Shown in pieces: positions 10,871-20,185 of a stretch of 64,000 nt of DNA. A program made the position numbers and the translations under genes. The notes below the pieces were generated by a model that did not search any database, had not been told where the DNA came from, and saw only the letters and a list, made by a program, of their open reading frames with translations. The stretch is from an uncultured Glaciecola sp. (GTDB lineage Bacteria > Pseudomonadota > Gammaproteobacteria > Enterobacterales > Alteromonadaceae), in the NCBI GenBank assembly GCA_947496235.1, contig CANMCE010000008.1:1-64000 (forward strand), read 5' to 3'. Position 1 is the first letter of the stretch. Every line of letters starts with the position of its first letter.

Positions 10871-13800
10871 ATGATGATTATTACGGATGCTGAAAAGGAG
10901 TTTTTGTCCGGGCTAGAAACAGCCAACGCCTATTGCTGTACTACAGATGCTCATGGTGCTCCCTCAGTTATAAGGGCTGAGTTAATTAAAAAAGTGCTTT
11001 TAGGCATTCCTATCGATGGTGTTGTATATAAACTTTCGCGAGCAGGCATCACACTTGAAAAAGTTACCATTGAGGGACGTTTAGATCTCGATAATATTGA
11101 TTGTGTTGAAAACGGGAAAGTTCCTTCATTAGAATTCAAAGATTGCTTGTTTAATGGAGGCTTTAGCGCCAATAACGCCCAACTATCTCGACTAGTGTTG
11201 AAGCGTTCAGTGTTTGCTGGGGATTTTTCAGATACAGCTACCGTTTCGTTAGATAATTGTCGTATCGACGGTACCTTAAATTTGAACGCTATTGGTCCGG
11301 TCGATGATCAAACCTATTGTTGGGTCAATGCACGAGATGCCCTTATTGATGGAAGCCTGTTACTTACCGACGCAAATCTTCATTGCCCTAAACGAGATCT
11401 ATTAACCTCCAAGCAAACCCCTCGTTATGCGTTAAATTTACTCAATGCCAAGGTCAGTGGGGACATTGAAGTAAAGGAAGGGCTCACAGCCATTGGCGGT
11501 ATTAAATTAAGAAATACCCTAGTTGAAGGTGATGTTTGGCTCTTGGGAAGCAAGCTAGTAGCGGGTGAAGGTTATGCCTTATTGGCCCAGGGCGCTCAAA
11601 TTAAAGGCGGATTGAGTTTAAAACCCAGTGTGCATAGCTTGGATAAATCCTCTGATGAAAAAGAGTTGATTAATAAAAGCGAGCTTGAAGGAGGTCTAAA
11701 CTTTTTTGGTGCAAGTATCGATAGATTACTCGAAATAAGAGGTATTCAAGTAAGACCTTCAGCAAAGCAAATTGATGACGAACAGGGCGTTTCTATATCT
11801 TTCAACCAAATTAAACTGGGAGACGGCTTAGTAGTGGGGTCTTTTGTCACTCAACATTCCATGGTCCAAATGAAGACTCCCTTAGCAATAACAATATCCC
11901 ATGCGTCTATAAAAGGTGGTGTATATATAGCTGGAGTTAAGGTGGATAGAGCGGATAAAACATATTCGCTGGTGATGCAAAATACGTCAATAACAGGTAA
12001 TTTTGTATCTGAGCATGTGCTCTTCAAAGGTCAAATTATTAGTTCTGAATTCGCCGGTTACATGCAAGTTTCTGATTGTACCATCGGAGGTTATTGTTTT
12101 ATTCAAAACACAAAAATTGGAGATGAAAATTCAGTTTCTATATTAGATTTTCAGCGAAATACAGTTCAAGGTATTGGGGAGTTGCGCAATGTTGATCTTA
12201 AAAAATCGCTTGATATGAGAAACTCAGTTTTTAATTCAGGACTATCCATTCGAATAAAACGCCATACAATTGATACTTTTATAGAAACTCGGTACTGCCA
12301 ACTTGACTTAAGAAGTATTAAAGTCGCCGGTAATCTTTTTATCAGTGCTGATACCCAGCATTTAGGGTTAACCAAATCGGAAATTGATGGCTATTGTACT
12401 TTGGAAGCTACTATAAGCGGCAGTTTCTATGCACAAGAAGCCATAATTAAAGGTTCATTCGAACTCAACAATGTCAAGTTTAGAGGCTTCGAAGGGAACG
12501 AGGATAGTGAGGAACAAAACGAGTTTTTATTAACGCGCTGTCAAATTGGTCAAGCGCTGATGTTTAACAATCCAATGAAAGTCAATTTTGACGATATTAT
12601 CCTCAAAAATGTAAGGCTTTATCCAAGCCTTTGTTATCCTAATTATTATTATTGCGAGGCTGATTATTCAGGTAATTTTACCGCGGATGATCACGAAGGA
12701 AGTGCTTCTTTCTTAGTTAGAAAAGACAAGCCATTAAGTAAAGAGAATTTAATTTTATGTAACAGTAATTCAAATTTGTTTCATTCATTAAATGAACAAA
12801 ATGAATTGGACATATCAACGGAAGAAAAAGCCAAAGACTATATTAAATTATTTTGTGCAAATATTTGGGCCCAAAAGGGGGCCTTTGTAGTTTTTGAATC
12901 CGCAAATCACTTACCAAAGGAATATTTAATAAAGACAGATGCTGGTAGAGATTTATCTGAAATAGAGCCTTTAAAGTCGATACCTTTGGCCAGCGACGAG
13001 GCAAAAGAAATTGATAAAAATAAAGTATTGTCACCTTCAGATCGCTACTTATTCAGGGCTTACACAAGATATGGGAAGGATATTTTTTTATATTATTTTG
13101 TGATTCAAGAGACAAATTATCTGGTATGCGTTTCAGAAACAACGGTTTTTACTTTTGATGAAAGAGCGACCCCAAAAACCATTGCTCCCTTTAGAATTAA
13201 AAGCGAATCTTTTACCCGCCCTTCGCTATACACAGAAAATGAGCCGGATAACGAGATAATAACGGAAGAAGAAAGAGAGCAGTTATTAACCTTAATAAAT
13301 CAGAAACTAGCGCAAGAATTAAAAGCCTCAGGGTTAGGAACTGCATATGTAGATTTAAGTGATACATCAGTGAATCAACTAATTGATGATGATGGTCAGG
13401 CTTGGGGTAAAGACATCACCCTTAAACTTACCAACTTTACCTACAATAGATTTAACGACAGTGAATTAACAAAAGATAAGCCTTGGTCCATATGGCATAA
13501 ATTTACTTTCTACCTAACAACTAAACGAGCGAACTTTGTTCGAAATCTGTCTGAGGTATTTAATAAAATCGGCTTTGTACACCTGAGCAATGAGTTAGCG
13601 TCAAATAAGTGGGCGATAAAACCGCTAAAGCCAGAAAAAACGCCGATTAAAAGTCGCATAAAACATCGATTGAACTGGTTAAGTTTACAATACACAAAAC
13701 CGGCTGCAAAGAAATCGAACAGGTTGATCCGGTTTTTAAAATGGGCTCCCTTTCTGAATGCCGAAGATGAGCCGAGAAAAGTCAATTTATGGCAATTCCA

Positions 13801-14464
13801 AAGCTTTCCCTATATTCAAGCTGCCGCAACTTTTCGCAAAGAAGGTGTACACGAACTAGCGCGGCAAATTGATTATGAGGCACATAAATATTCGAGTTTA
13901 AAATATGCTAAGAATGCCGGTTATTTAAGTCCTTTAGTATATTTCTTGCACTATTTATACAAAATATCTTCTAAATTTGGATTGTCTCCCAATCGGGTAT
14001 TTTGCTGGTTGTTAGCTTTCATCCTGGTGGGGGGATTAATGGTGGAAGTGGCTAATCAAAAAGGTGTTATGGTGATGGAAACAGTTACTGTTAATCAATT
14101 AAACTCTACTTCAGATACTAGTTTTACATCAACCGAAGATGCACAATTTCCTGTGCTTCCATGTAACCGAAATATTCAGCCTATACTTTACGCCGCAGAC
14201 ATATTTTTACCTTTGATAGATTTAGGTCAGGAAAGACGGTGTACCTTGGGAACACCTAGTCTGATGGTAGAAAAACCTCAATTTACCCAGCATGGCTCTT
14301 TGATATCCACTGTTGAGGCTTCTTTATCTTCCCATACACCTTCGAGTTTGAGTTTTTGGCAGTGGGCACGCTCCCTTTACAGCATCTTGGGTTGGGTAAT
14401 GCTGTCTTTATTTATATTTGCCTTAACTAACCGATTGCGCTCACCAGAAATCCACCGAAGGTAA
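10871..14464 (+). CDS. Giant beta-helix-like membrane protein of unknown function
   Basis: A 1197-residue protein without a signal peptide. Residues 60-560 are filled with short repeating strands (for example LTLEKVTIEGRLDLDN-like, ISHASIKGGVYIAG, NTSITGNFVSEHV), the pattern of a right-handed beta-helix of the pentapeptide-repeat or bactofilin kind. The middle (about 600-1000) is more polar and A+T-rich in its coding sequence. The C terminus has two hydrophobic segments at about 1042-1062 and 1169-1189, separated by YAADIFLPLIDLGQERRC. That C-terminal pattern recalls large proteins sometimes labelled membrane-associated oxidoreductases, but I see no nucleotide-binding or redox motif here. The gene starts at the base after the dehydrogenase stop codon. 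Confidence 0.7.
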   Translation: MMIITDAEKEFLSGLETANAYCCTTDAHGAPSVIRAELIKKVLLGIPIDGVVYKLSRAGITLEKVTIEGRLDLDNIDCVENGKVPSLEFKDCLFNGGFSANNAQLSRLVLKRSVFAGDFSDTATVSLDNCRIDGTLNLNAIGPVDDQTYCWVNARDALIDGSLLLTDANLHCPKRDLLTSKQTPRYALNLLNAKVSGDIEVKEGLTAIGGIKLRNTLVEGDVWLLGSKLVAGEGYALLAQGAQIKGGLSLKPSVHSLDKSSDEKELINKSELEGGLNFFGASIDRLLEIRGIQVRPSAKQIDDEQGVSISFNQIKLGDGLVVGSFVTQHSMVQMKTPLAITISHASIKGGVYIAGVKVDRADKTYSLVMQNTSITGNFVSEHVLFKGQIISSEFAGYMQVSDCTIGGYCFIQNTKIGDENSVSILDFQRNTVQGIGELRNVDLKKSLDMRNSVFNSGLSIRIKRHTIDTFIETRYCQLDLRSIKVAGNLFISADTQHLGLTKSEIDGYCTLEATISGSFYAQEAIIKGSFELNNVKFRGFEGNEDSEEQNEFLLTRCQIGQALMFNNPMKVNFDDIILKNVRLYPSLCYPNYYYCEADYSGNFTADDHEGSASFLVRKDKPLSKENLILCNSNSNLFHSLNEQNELDISTEEKAKDYIKLFCANIWAQKGAFVVFESANHLPKEYLIKTDAGRDLSEIEPLKSIPLASDEAKEIDKNKVLSPSDRYLFRAYTRYGKDIFLYYFVIQETNYLVCVSETTVFTFDERATPKTIAPFRIKSESFTRPSLYTENEPDNEIITEEEREQLLTLINQKLAQELKASGLGTAYVDLSDTSVNQLIDDDGQAWGKDITLKLTNFTYNRFNDSELTKDKPWSIWHKFTFYLTTKRANFVRNLSEVFNKIGFVHLSNELASNKWAIKPLKPEKTPIKSRIKHRLNWLSLQYTKPAAKKSNRLIRFLKWAPFLNAEDEPRKVNLWQFQSFPYIQAAATFRKEGVHELARQIDYEAHKYSSLKYAKNAGYLSPLVYFLHYLYKISSKFGLSPNRVFCWLLAFILVGGLMVEVANQKGVMVMETVTVNQLNSTSDTSFTSTEDAQFPVLPCNRNIQPILYAADIFLPLIDLGQERRCTLGTPSLMVEKPQFTQHGSLISTVEASLSSHTPSSLSFWQWARSLYSILGWVMLSLFIFALTNRLRSPEIHRR

Positions 14465-17586: not shown

Positions 17587-18720
17587 ATGGTGAAATGGAT
17601 GGTAACGGCAGTTCTCGTTTTATTGAGTTTACATGCCTCAGGGACTGAAAATTCTTTAAAAGACGCTTATCAAAACGCATTCAAAATTGGCGTTGCCGTC
17701 AATGAAGACATAACCTCAGGAAATAATTCCAAGGCGCAAGATATTGTTGTTCGGCATTTTAATACAGTGACCGCTGAAAATGTCTTAAAAGCCGGGCCTC
17801 TAACTGAATCAGGGCAATATAATTGGGCGGCTGCAGATGCTTTTGTTGAATTTGCAGAAGCTAAAGATATGTTCATTATTGGCCATACTTTAGTGTGGCA
17901 CAATCAAACCCCCAACTGGTTTTTTACCAATCAAAAAGGCGAACCTAATACGCCAGAACAGCAATTAGCCCGAATGCGCGAGCACATTAAAACAGTTGCA
18001 GGTCGCTACAAAGGACGCATTCACGCATGGGATGTGGTAAACGAAGTCATTGACAACGATGGCAATTATCGACCTACCACCTGGGTGAATGCTGTTGGCA
18101 GTGGCGATGAAATGGTCAAAGTCGCGTTTCGATATGCACAGGAATTTGCGCCTGAAGCTGAACTTTATTACAACGATTTTAATGCTTGGCGCCCCGCAAA
18201 AGTGAAAGGCATAGTGCGTATGGTAAAAATGCTGCAAGACGCTGGTATTCGTATCGATGGCATTGGTATTCAAGGTCATTGGGGATTGAATTTTCCGAAA
18301 AACCAATACATTGAAGAGGCTATCGATGCATATGCAGCCTTAGGTGTAAAAGTCATGATTACTGAACTTGATGTCGATGTACTGCCACTTACCAAAGAAG
18401 GACAAATTATTGGGACAGGTATGTTACATCCGCAGTTTCAGCTAGAAGAGTTTGAAGTATTTTTAGATCCCTATAAAGAGGGATTACCTGAAGAGGTGGA
18501 ACAGCAATTAGCAGATCGTTACGCAGAGCTTTTCGGAATTTTTTATAAAAAGCGCGACAAAATTGATCGCGTAACCCTTTGGGGAGTCGATGACAGTATG
18601 AGTTGGAAAAATGGTTACCCTATCGCAGAAAGAACCAATTATCCGCTCTTGTTCGACCGTAATTTCAAGGCAAAACCGGCGTTTCATTCCGTCATCATTA
18701 TCCCAACAATGGACCCCTAA
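17587..18720 (+). CDS. Secreted GH10 endo-1,4-beta-xylanase
   Basis: A 377-residue xylanase with a short signal peptide and a single GH10 (beta/alpha)8 barrel. GHTLVWHNQTPNWF is the conserved substrate-binding segment. The acid/base glutamate is E153 in WDVVNEVIDND, the nucleophile is E260 in ITELDVDV, and LWGVDDSMSW closes the active site. It hydrolyses internal beta-1,4-xylosidic bonds, releasing oligoxylosides for the GH8 enzyme next door. There is no carbohydrate-binding module. The last three codons and the stop lie inside the outer arm of the long inverted repeat at 18708-18870, so its mRNA 3' end must carry that hairpin. Confidence 0.96.
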   Translation: MVKWMVTAVLVLLSLHASGTENSLKDAYQNAFKIGVAVNEDITSGNNSKAQDIVVRHFNTVTAENVLKAGPLTESGQYNWAAADAFVEFAEAKDMFIIGHTLVWHNQTPNWFFTNQKGEPNTPEQQLARMREHIKTVAGRYKGRIHAWDVVNEVIDNDGNYRPTTWVNAVGSGDEMVKVAFRYAQEFAPEAELYYNDFNAWRPAKVKGIVRMVKMLQDAGIRIDGIGIQGHWGLNFPKNQYIEEAIDAYAALGVKVMITELDVDVLPLTKEGQIIGTGMLHPQFQLEEFEVFLDPYKEGLPEEVEQQLADRYAELFGIFYKKRDKIDRVTLWGVDDSMSWKNGYPIAERTNYPLLFDRNFKAKPAFHSVIIIPTMDP

Positions 18721-18870
18721 ATAATGGAGCCGTAGTTCATTTAAATAATGGAGCCGTAGTTCATTCTCACCATACTGCGGAATTTCCGTTGTCCATTTGA
18801 GTGAAAGGTGAGAATGAACTACGGCTCCATTATTTAAATGAACTACGGCTCCATTATTTAGGGGTCCATT
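18708..18870. repeat. Perfect long inverted repeat with nested 24-bp tandem repeats
   Basis: The arms are 18708-18771 and 18807-18870, 64 bases each and exactly complementary by eye, separated by a 35-base spacer. Inside each arm a 24-base unit (starting TAAATAATGGAGCCG) occurs twice in tandem, giving four copies, two per strand. Just outside the right arm a degenerate partial third copy is visible (GGTCCATTATTTAC). The spacer has no open frame, so this is not an insertion sequence. The left arm overlaps the xylanase stop codon and the right arm ends 25 bases before the GH8 start. Transcribed, it would fold into a very stable 64-bp hairpin. Confidence 0.97.
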
Positions 18871-18895
18871 ATTTACAAAATTTGTAGGATAAAAA

Positions 18896-20185
18896 ATGAA
18901 AACAAAAATCATTCTGGTATTGGCTTTTTATCTGGTGTTATCAGGATGCAGTGAACTGCTTGCTGATAGCAATGGGGAGGTTAAACTACCGAATCGTCCC
19001 GTTGGAGCTGCCGTAAGCCATGAGTATCCTAACTTGTTTGTGCAAGTGACGCAGCGTTCTCCTGAGCAAGTGCGAGCTAAAATAACGGCCGCCTATCAAC
19101 AATTGTTTTTTGGCGATCCTAAAACCCAAGCAGTTTATTATCCCGACGGAAGTAATGCGTACGGTGAAAAAGCTTATATTTGGGACGTGAACAGTAATGA
19201 TGTGCGTTCTGAAGGCATGAGTTACGGCATGATGATAGCTGTGCAAATGAATGATAAAGCAGTATTTGATGCACTTTGGAACTGGTCATTATCTCATATG
19301 TACAATGATGCCGATGAACATCCCGCCAAGGGCTTTTTTGCTTGGAGTGTTAGTACACAGGGAGAAAAGTTAGATGAAATGCCTGCACCCGACGGTGAAG
19401 AGTATTTTGCTACAGCTTTGTATTTTGCATCCAAGCGTTGGGGCGATGGCAAAGGTATTTACGCTTACTCTCTCTGGGGCGATAAAATACTGCGTGACAT
19501 TTTGCATCGCGAATCCATAACTGGTCCTACAAATCGCGGTGAAATGACGGCGATAAATCTATTTGATAAAGAGCACAAAATGGTGCGATTCACTCCTGAT
19601 GTGGTGAATTCTGAGCGCACAGATGCTTCCTATCACCTGCCTGCTTTCTATCAGATTTGGGCAAAAGTAGGTCCTGAAAAAGATAGGGATTTTTGGCAGC
19701 AGGCTACTCAGGTGAGCAGGGACTATTTCAATCAGGCTTCTCACCCAGACACAGGGTTAACCCCTGATTATGGCAATTTCGACGCCACACCTTGGGCGGC
19801 ATCATGGCGTCCTGAAAGTGTGGATTATCGCTATGATGCTTGGCGAACCGCAATGAATTGGTCGGTAGATTGGAGCTGGTGGAAAGCTGATCAGCGACAA
19901 GTCGAGTTGAGCAACCGCTTGCAAGCCTTCTTTGAATCTCAAGGCATGGATGAATATAAGAGTTTATATACGCTGGACGGAAAACCTCTGGGTGGTGGCC
20001 AAACAACTGGAATCGTGGCAATGAATGCTACTGCGAGTCTGGCCGCCGATCATCCGCGCAGGCAGAAGTTTTTAGCGGCACTTTGGGAACGTCCAATTCC
20101 TACTGGACCTTATAGATACTACGATGGCATGTTGTATATGATGGCGCTGTTGCATTGTAGTGGTGAATTTAAGGCCTGGTATTAA
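18896..20185 (+). CDS. GH8 lipoprotein, probable reducing-end xylose-releasing exo-oligoxylanase
   Basis: A 429-residue protein with a lipoprotein signal (VLSGC, Cys18), so anchored to a membrane facing the periplasm or surface. The GH8 (alpha/alpha)6 barrel shows SEGMSYGMM with the likely general acid E106, PDGEEYFATALYFAS with D166, and YRYDAWRTAMNW with D314 as probable base. The overall sequence, about 400 residues with the YRYDAWR segment, resembles Rex-type enzymes, which trim xylose from the reducing end of xylo-oligosaccharides. This would complement the GH10 xylanase. It is separated from GH10 by the inverted repeat and from the esterase by 34 bases. Confidence 0.88.
   Translation: MKTKIILVLAFYLVLSGCSELLADSNGEVKLPNRPVGAAVSHEYPNLFVQVTQRSPEQVRAKITAAYQQLFFGDPKTQAVYYPDGSNAYGEKAYIWDVNSNDVRSEGMSYGMMIAVQMNDKAVFDALWNWSLSHMYNDADEHPAKGFFAWSVSTQGEKLDEMPAPDGEEYFATALYFASKRWGDGKGIYAYSLWGDKILRDILHRESITGPTNRGEMTAINLFDKEHKMVRFTPDVVNSERTDASYHLPAFYQIWAKVGPEKDRDFWQQATQVSRDYFNQASHPDTGLTPDYGNFDATPWAASWRPESVDYRYDAWRTAMNWSVDWSWWKADQRQVELSNRLQAFFESQGMDEYKSLYTLDGKPLGGGQTTGIVAMNATASLAADHPRRQKFLAALWERPIPTGPYRYYDGMLYMMALLHCSGEFKAWY

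Follow-up and report, generated by a model that had tools for sequence, protein, structure and literature searches.

The GH10 and GH8 genes of this uncultured Glaciecola sp. are separated by a long palindrome, and the question raised by the locus is whether this structure serves the two genes or is an element of other origin that came to lie between them. The window, which is the whole 64,000-nucleotide stretch analysed, belongs to a draft assembly of 4.42 Mb in 55 contigs. In it, the GH10 gene occupies positions 17587–18720 and the GH8 gene positions 18896–20185, both on the plus strand (the latter was assigned to GH8 by Pfam, while "oligoxylanase" is the label used in a preliminary description of this DNA). 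The geometry given in that description was re-checked on the sequence and proved correct: two 64-nt arms, at 18708–18771 (plus strand) and 18807–18870 (minus strand), are exact reverse complements across a 35-nt gap, each arm contains two tandem 24-nt copies (18718–18741 and 18742–18765 on the left, 18813–18836 and 18837–18860 on the right), the GH10 stop codon (TAA, 18718–18720) lies inside the left arm, and 25 nt separate the end of the right arm from the GH8 start at 18896. Extension of the arms to 67 nt introduces a single mismatch, at 18707, and the entire element, to which no strand is assigned, spans 18705–18873.

Composition of the palindrome

Each arm is composed of two copies of a 17-nt unit, ATGGAGCCGTAGTTCAT, connected by the joiner TTAAATA, and of an outer, shortened and degenerate third unit, ATGGACCCCTAAATA. 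The outer and inner left units (18724–18740 and 18748–18764, plus strand) are followed by the inner and outer right units (18814–18830 and 18838–18854, minus strand), giving a REPIN-like tetramer of what is, as described below, a transposase-linked unit. The degenerate third unit at 18709–18723 (plus strand) codes for the final three residues of GH10 (M-D-P) and its TAA stop; it is mirrored in the right arm at 18855–18869 (minus strand) and has counterparts, ATGGAGCCGTAAATA and ATGGAGCCTTAAATA, at the same position in two sister elements of locus L064. Towards the centre, the inner stem TCTCACC (18765–18771, plus strand) pairs with 18807–18813; this stem varies among elements and is paired in most of them. 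It encloses the 35-nt spacer, or loop (18772–18806, no strand), whose length is like that of the loops of sister elements and whose sequence is mostly unrelated to theirs.

When the 64-kb window was scanned for inverted repeats with arms of at least 18 nt, at most 2 mismatches and loops of 20–129 nt, this palindrome was the only one found. The predicted RNA fold of 18700–18900 has an energy of −126.7 kcal/mol, whereas 200 dinucleotide shuffles average −39.7 (sd 4.5) and none of them equalled it. As a separate observation, a 1197-codon ORF at 10871–14464, located 5' of the glycoside hydrolase cluster, reads as seemingly repetitive and beta-helix- or pentapeptide-like, with hydrophobic stretches toward its C-terminus.

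A repeat family and a Y1 transposase gene

A search of the same genome with the 271-bp palindrome region returned 72 matches, and a 19-nt form of the unit was found, at up to 3 mismatches, in 104 places (55 forward and 49 reverse), compared to 0 and 3 for the control. From the 100 of these 104 places that were listed, 29 stretches were taken around those outside the window; with the window they amount to 256,693 bases and hold at least 104 copies of the 17-nt unit (up to 3 mismatches) in at least 38 clusters, the two figures of 104 being separate counts that are equal by coincidence. The unit orientations in 38 clusters follow the patterns ++−− (8 clusters), ++ (6), + (4), −, +− and −+ (3 each), +−−−, ++−−−, −− and +++−− (2 each), and ++−, +++ and +−− (1 each); the single units at L047 and L053 may be chance matches. 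The preliminary description had advised a search for the repeat in the genome and its relatives, and the outcome was divided: a multi-copy family is present in the genome itself, but the 271-bp region, a query that may miss scattered single units, had no match in 39 other genomes (12 of the genus, 11 of the family and 16 of the order), so that one genome of 40 carries it. Plasmids, phages and viral contigs gave no match either, the viral scan being for the exact 19-nt unit. Folded as a hairpin, a single unit reaches −0.3 kcal/mol, which 46 of 200 shuffles match, and GTAG lies within the unit, not ahead of a stem. An element of about 200 bp, in which four copies of the unit follow one another at 71, 41 and 72 nt, was seen at four contig ends (L048 188–508, L075 69–389, L060 2905–3142 and L069 2974–3127), two instances being truncated by the contig end; at two of the four ends it directly follows the apparent terminator of a multi-copy operon, possibly rrn.

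The repeat appears to belong to a Y1 (HuH) transposase gene located elsewhere in the genome. The PF01797 (Y1_Tnp) search of the genome gave one gene above the Pfam cut-off, encoding 230 aa (G000:C4:247493–248182; L059 5494–6186). This gene is bracketed, as in a TIRtron, by inward-facing unit doublets of 29-nt spacing, at L059 5376/5405 on the plus strand and 6183/6212 on the minus strand, and the first of the two inverted units on its 3' side overlaps the transposase stop codon. These flanking inverted repeats score 38 versus a shuffle maximum of 11. The protein scores 63.8 bits with the NCBIfam model 'REP-associated tyrosine transposase', under its cut-off of 80, and a profile built from 14 family members matches the solved TnpArep structure 4er8 (E 3.7e-5). 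It contains the motifs NHVH and YIELNP, by which it resembles RAYT group 1, or TnpA subclass 2.1, the TIRYTs. The motif table for TnpA subclasses in PMC6006769 lists NHVH, YIELNP and W[EQ] for subclass 2.1, and according to the same source this subclass equals RAYT group 1 and is probably identical to the TIRYTs of PMC3733652. The W[EQ] or FQ motif of the subclass is absent from the present transposase, which reads LWGGR (WG), and the 13 aligned relatives have WE or WQ (8), FE (2) or WD (3) at this position. The length of 230 aa compares with about 238 aa for the subclass, whose members extend at the C-terminus by an HTH-like domain; in the present protein, the extension after the Y1 domain aligns among relatives, and Pfam reports Y1_Tnp only.

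A search with the transposase protein gave a weak second Y1-like match in the genome (C7:85622–85831, 29% over 70 residues, E 1.2e-5). It lies in a 316-aa protein (L086 1162–2112, on C7) that was missed by PF01797 and has the motifs NHYH, WEG and YVDLNP, subclass 2.3-like by motif. No unit was found in its 3.2-kb locus, where the fewest mismatches were 5, but the protein may still have some role.

Elsewhere in the genus, clear relatives of the 230-aa transposase occur only in G003 (46%, full length) and in G008, where the gene is broken (49% over 94 residues) and its locus (L079) is without such inverted repeats; matches in seven further genus genomes are weak and short. At E ≤ 1e-15, relatives are present in 126 of the 295 genomes of the family. 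Flanks were compared for the best-scoring 30 loci, including the present one and that of G003, and at 23 of them the score of the flanking inverted repeats exceeded the highest of 30 shuffle scores by 3 or more. The seven other loci are those of G206, G158, G003, G067, G267, G120 and G121, the G003 repeats having been overlooked by the finder and revealed by a separate examination. Inward GGGWSAS motifs flank the gene on both sides at 19 of the 30 loci, the present locus not among them, and GGGGWSAS occurs on neither side of the present transposase gene. The closest relative, in G112 (53%), is accompanied by the repeat TAAAAAGGGGTCGTAGTTAATTA, which is intermediate between the GGGGTCAGAGT-type repeat and the present unit. 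The second species of the genus with such a system, G003, is assembled in one contig and combines its 46%-identical transposase with a different repeat of its own, CAAGGGGCCAGGTTACTTG, for which 32 places were counted when up to 3 mismatches were allowed (control 0); two of its inverted pairs have an identical variant in both members, while others differ (e.g. 1144393/1144416). Two of 27 named loci were examined, and GGGGACGGAGGGG-type inverted repeats adjoin the gene in Stenotrophomonas tumulicola (L093), while none were recognised beside the gene at L094.

Placement of the elements and mirroring of their arms

The clusters lie close to stop codons. Counting ORFs of 100 codons or more, 13 of 38 clusters lie within 5 nt of a stop codon, compared to 3.1% of intergenic positions, and 20 of 38 within 15 nt, compared to 7.6%. 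The ORFs are crude, and the null, drawn from 23,488 further intergenic positions of these sequences, disallowed overlap with an ORF end; four of the 13 close clusters do overlap one, and without those 9 of 38 lie within 5 nt. The neighbouring genes, identified by reading of translations, are varied and include rpmA/obgE, flhB/flhA, eno, ruvB, rplS and the transposase itself. The rpmA–obgE gap measures 290 nt here and 127–785 nt in the 12 other genus genomes, whose loci (about 3.3 kb each) contain no unit with fewer than 5 mismatches; the present element is therefore absent there in all 12, though several of the gaps hold other sequence. Long inverted repeats that bear no relation to the unit were also seen in the rpmA–obgE gap of G001 and G002 (L190, L192) and 3' of rplS in G011 (L138 1207–1311). 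Their loops of about 50–80 nt have a CATCCATG-like core, and they may represent another palindrome family within the genus, occupying gaps of a similar kind. For the element in the window, an empty site was sought in the 12 other genus genomes. A GH8 relative occurs in two of them, in G012 as a 40% match along 337 residues of an 885-codon frame and in G008 as a piece of 72 residues, but neither offers a usable orthologous site. For the transposase, the gene on its left side was found next to yebC in none of the 12 relatives' loci, and no empty site could therefore be defined there.

Unit doublets also enclose genes other than the transposase. Downstream of rplS (L068 3005–4150), a maltose-acetyltransferase-type gene and a Nudix gene lie between ++ and −− doublets of 29-nt spacing, a layout matching that around the transposase. 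In G001, rplS is followed by about 180 bp and then by the corresponding AbgT-like gene (83% identical), without the acetyltransferase–Nudix pair. The outer flanks are both alignable by eye, but G001 has about 100 nt of other sequence at this place, and the event may therefore have been other than a simple clean insertion. In G005 the neighbour order is as in the present genome and the gap is mostly N, G004 has a more distant transporter (36%) at the place, an acetyltransferase of 35% identity lies near rplS in G011, and the remaining 8 genus genomes gave no AbgT match inside the rplS locus; Nudix relatives of 50–62% identity occur in G004, G005, G010 and G012. The comparison with G001, the one on which this reading is based, supports a gain of the doublet-bounded segment. 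A lone 262-codon ORF between two elements (L050 3091–4125) is another possible enclosed segment.

We consider it a speculative and rather unlikely extension of these observations that the doublets form a minimal mobile boundary, that the transposase moves any segment between inward-facing doublets, with the acetyltransferase–Nudix pair as cargo, and that the hairpins arise and stay perfect as one arm is copied by fold-back. To our knowledge, group 1 RAYT systems are regarded as not moving as a unit; if the extension were true, the gene pair would be the cargo of such a system. In the literature on passenger and cargo genes, REPtron was not found among the matches listed.

Within the elements, the two arms mirror each other closely. 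Unit spacing is equal on both sides in seven of the eight ++−− clusters (24/24, 20/20, 23/23 or 29/29), and in the eighth, L074, truncation of the outer right unit leaves 23/15. The detailed comparison covered 19 elements, with two units per side considered in 13. The linker was the same in both arms in 10 of these 13 (the exceptions being the transposase, the two-gene segment and C15_80k), compared to 4 of 156 cross-element comparisons, and its length, which ranges from 3 to 12 nt across elements, was equal between arms in all 13. This lends support to the active homogenisation that the preliminary description had offered as one reason for the perfect identity of the arms. The inner stems are of the types TCTCACC, TATCACC, TATCGCC, TATTTC, TATTCC and TCTTTC. 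Four elements (those of the transposase and of the two-gene segment, and two with short loops) were set aside; of the 15 others, 13 match in at least 6 of the first 8 nt, with 5 in C9_147k and 4 in C15_80k. On average 6.5 nt match within an element and 4.9 between elements, and none of 20000 permutations equalled the observed sum, whether computed on these 15 or on all 19. Mirroring is not perfect: in L056, L057, L062, L064 (204 kb), L067 and L074 there are extra or partial outer units that have no complete counterpart, and an additional unit lies inside L065. The loops are a different matter: similarity at p ≤ 0.05 was found in 8 of 78 pairs versus 3.9 expected, the best pair aligning in reverse orientation. 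The loops are mostly unrelated, and any copying of whole hairpins is therefore putative.

The preferred explanation for the mirrored arms is arm-to-arm copying, in which template switching during replication would keep the arms identical and mirror any change from one to the other. Template switching between arms is described as homogenising them and inverting spacers in PMC8604942 and PMC8794818. For this step of the explanation, a possible but less probable rival is that the arms are maintained by selection for hairpin pairing in RNA or DNA. The covariation of the inner stems would fit such selection, as would the length of the spacers, which including the inner stems is held at 44–51 nt in 13 elements, and the account of REPINs by Bertels and Rainey 2011 (PMC3116915), in which compensatory changes are common and length and hairpin capacity are the critical features. 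However, a linker of variable length that is nevertheless equal between arms in every element with two units per side is poorly explained by single compensatory substitutions.

Origin of the element and its possible effect

Taking these results together, the palindrome between GH10 and GH8 is very probably a miniature, non-autonomous REPIN/TIR-dimer element, built from the terminal repeat of a TnpA_REP-like Y1 (HuH) transposase of RAYT group 1 (subclass 2.1, TIRYT type). The transposase would recognise the unit in folded single-stranded DNA and would move or copy hairpins to new sites, often gene ends. The element in the window would have landed at the 3' end of GH10, whose last codons and stop it now provides.

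Among known systems, TIRtrons and TIRYT repeats come close, as these have a RAYT-like Y1 gene within inverted repeats that have multiplied as singles, dimers and clusters, according to Di Nocera et al. 2013 (PMC3733652), and the present repeat can be aligned with the GGGG-type repeats of relatives. It differs in that the unit is without GGGGWSAS, a motif common to many TIRYT repeats, though not to all, and in that its arms nest doublets; the mirrored arms and the closeness to stop codons were measured in the present analysis. REPINs, as portrayed in PMC3116915, share the two inverted repeats, the variable spacer of conserved length, the long hairpin, the compensatory changes and the RAYT link, and the present element likewise occurs in many copies as a hairpin-forming inverted pair with a spacer. 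In contrast to REPINs, its unit is not headed by GTAG as a short REP hairpin, its arms often have two units, and its transposase falls by motifs outside RAYT groups 2 and 3. The BIME and REP elements of E. coli with TnpA_REP are similarly dispersed palindromes, part of them near stop codons, with a HuH transposase (so described in PMC8266576 and PMC12306157), whereas the present element lacks their GTAG-preceded single-unit stem-loop. An integron attC site, the end of a Tn7- or Tn402-like multi-site transposon and a CRISPR-like array had been considered from the shape of the palindrome but were abandoned when doublets proved to flank the Y1 gene.

Two other accounts of the element's origin have little to recommend them. 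That one arm is a fold-back error of the assembly, a possibility raised in the preliminary description, might be entertained for a draft in 55 contigs in which some copies lie at contig ends, but is extremely unlikely, since the family occupies at least 38 clusters whose flanks and loops mostly differ, copies in mid-contig included, and inverted pairs of another repeat are present in the one-contig assembly of G003. That the element is what remains of some transposon, phage or plasmid without any connection to the Y1 transposase would be in keeping with the inverted-repeat architecture and the genome-specific, MITE-like spread; the bracketing of the Y1 gene by the unit, and the lack, at the sensitivity of the searches, of any match in plasmids, phages and viral contigs, make this very improbable.

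Similarly, a dedicated regulatory hairpin of the xylan operon, which would uncouple GH10 and GH8 by attenuation or RNase III processing, is improbable. Such a role could draw on the very stable fold, on the GH10 stop codon within the arm and on the 25 nt to GH8, but the unit recurs in its many clusters beside genes as unrelated as rpmA–obgE, flhB–flhA, eno, rplS and the transposase, and the specific role in GH10/GH8 expression put forward in the preliminary description is thus unsupported. Moreover, an Rfam scan of the window at gathering scores gave no known RNA family, and an intrinsic terminator was ruled out, as the full hairpin is followed by TTATTTACAAAA, with no T run. Two terminator-like sites lie in 18400–19100 (0.6 expected), namely a partial 6-pair stem with the tail CATTATTTAC at 18847–18866 and a second site on the minus strand at 18571–18553. 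By analogy with REPs, the REPIN-like element may still have a generic post-transcriptional effect on the GH10/GH8 mRNA: its very stable hairpin, if it acts at all, would probably do so through 3' protection or through stalling or cleavage at the stop codon, and could generically lower or unlink the expression of GH10 and GH8. An effect at the stop codon is plausible because the element begins before the GH10 stop, and E. coli REPs up to 15 nt from a stop codon stall ribosomes, according to work cited in PMC12306157.

The element is thus well supported as ordinary in kind, a REPIN-like miniature element of a TIRYT system, and such palindromes should not be read as operon-specific regulators. 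No account of this system was found in the literature on TnpAREP with Alteromonas. Of the five RAYT groups, group 1 contains the most sequences according to the numbers given in PMC6006769, and this 2018 survey reports that no REP-like sequences were found beside subclass 2.1 genes. The present genome, in which the terminal repeat of a subclass 2.1-like transposase is present about a hundred times, in many cases within hairpins, is for this reason of more than local interest. Its mirrored arms look as if copying from arm to arm had left a natural record in them, and together with the second species of the genus, which has a different transposase–repeat pair, it would provide a tractable system for tests of recognition and movement.
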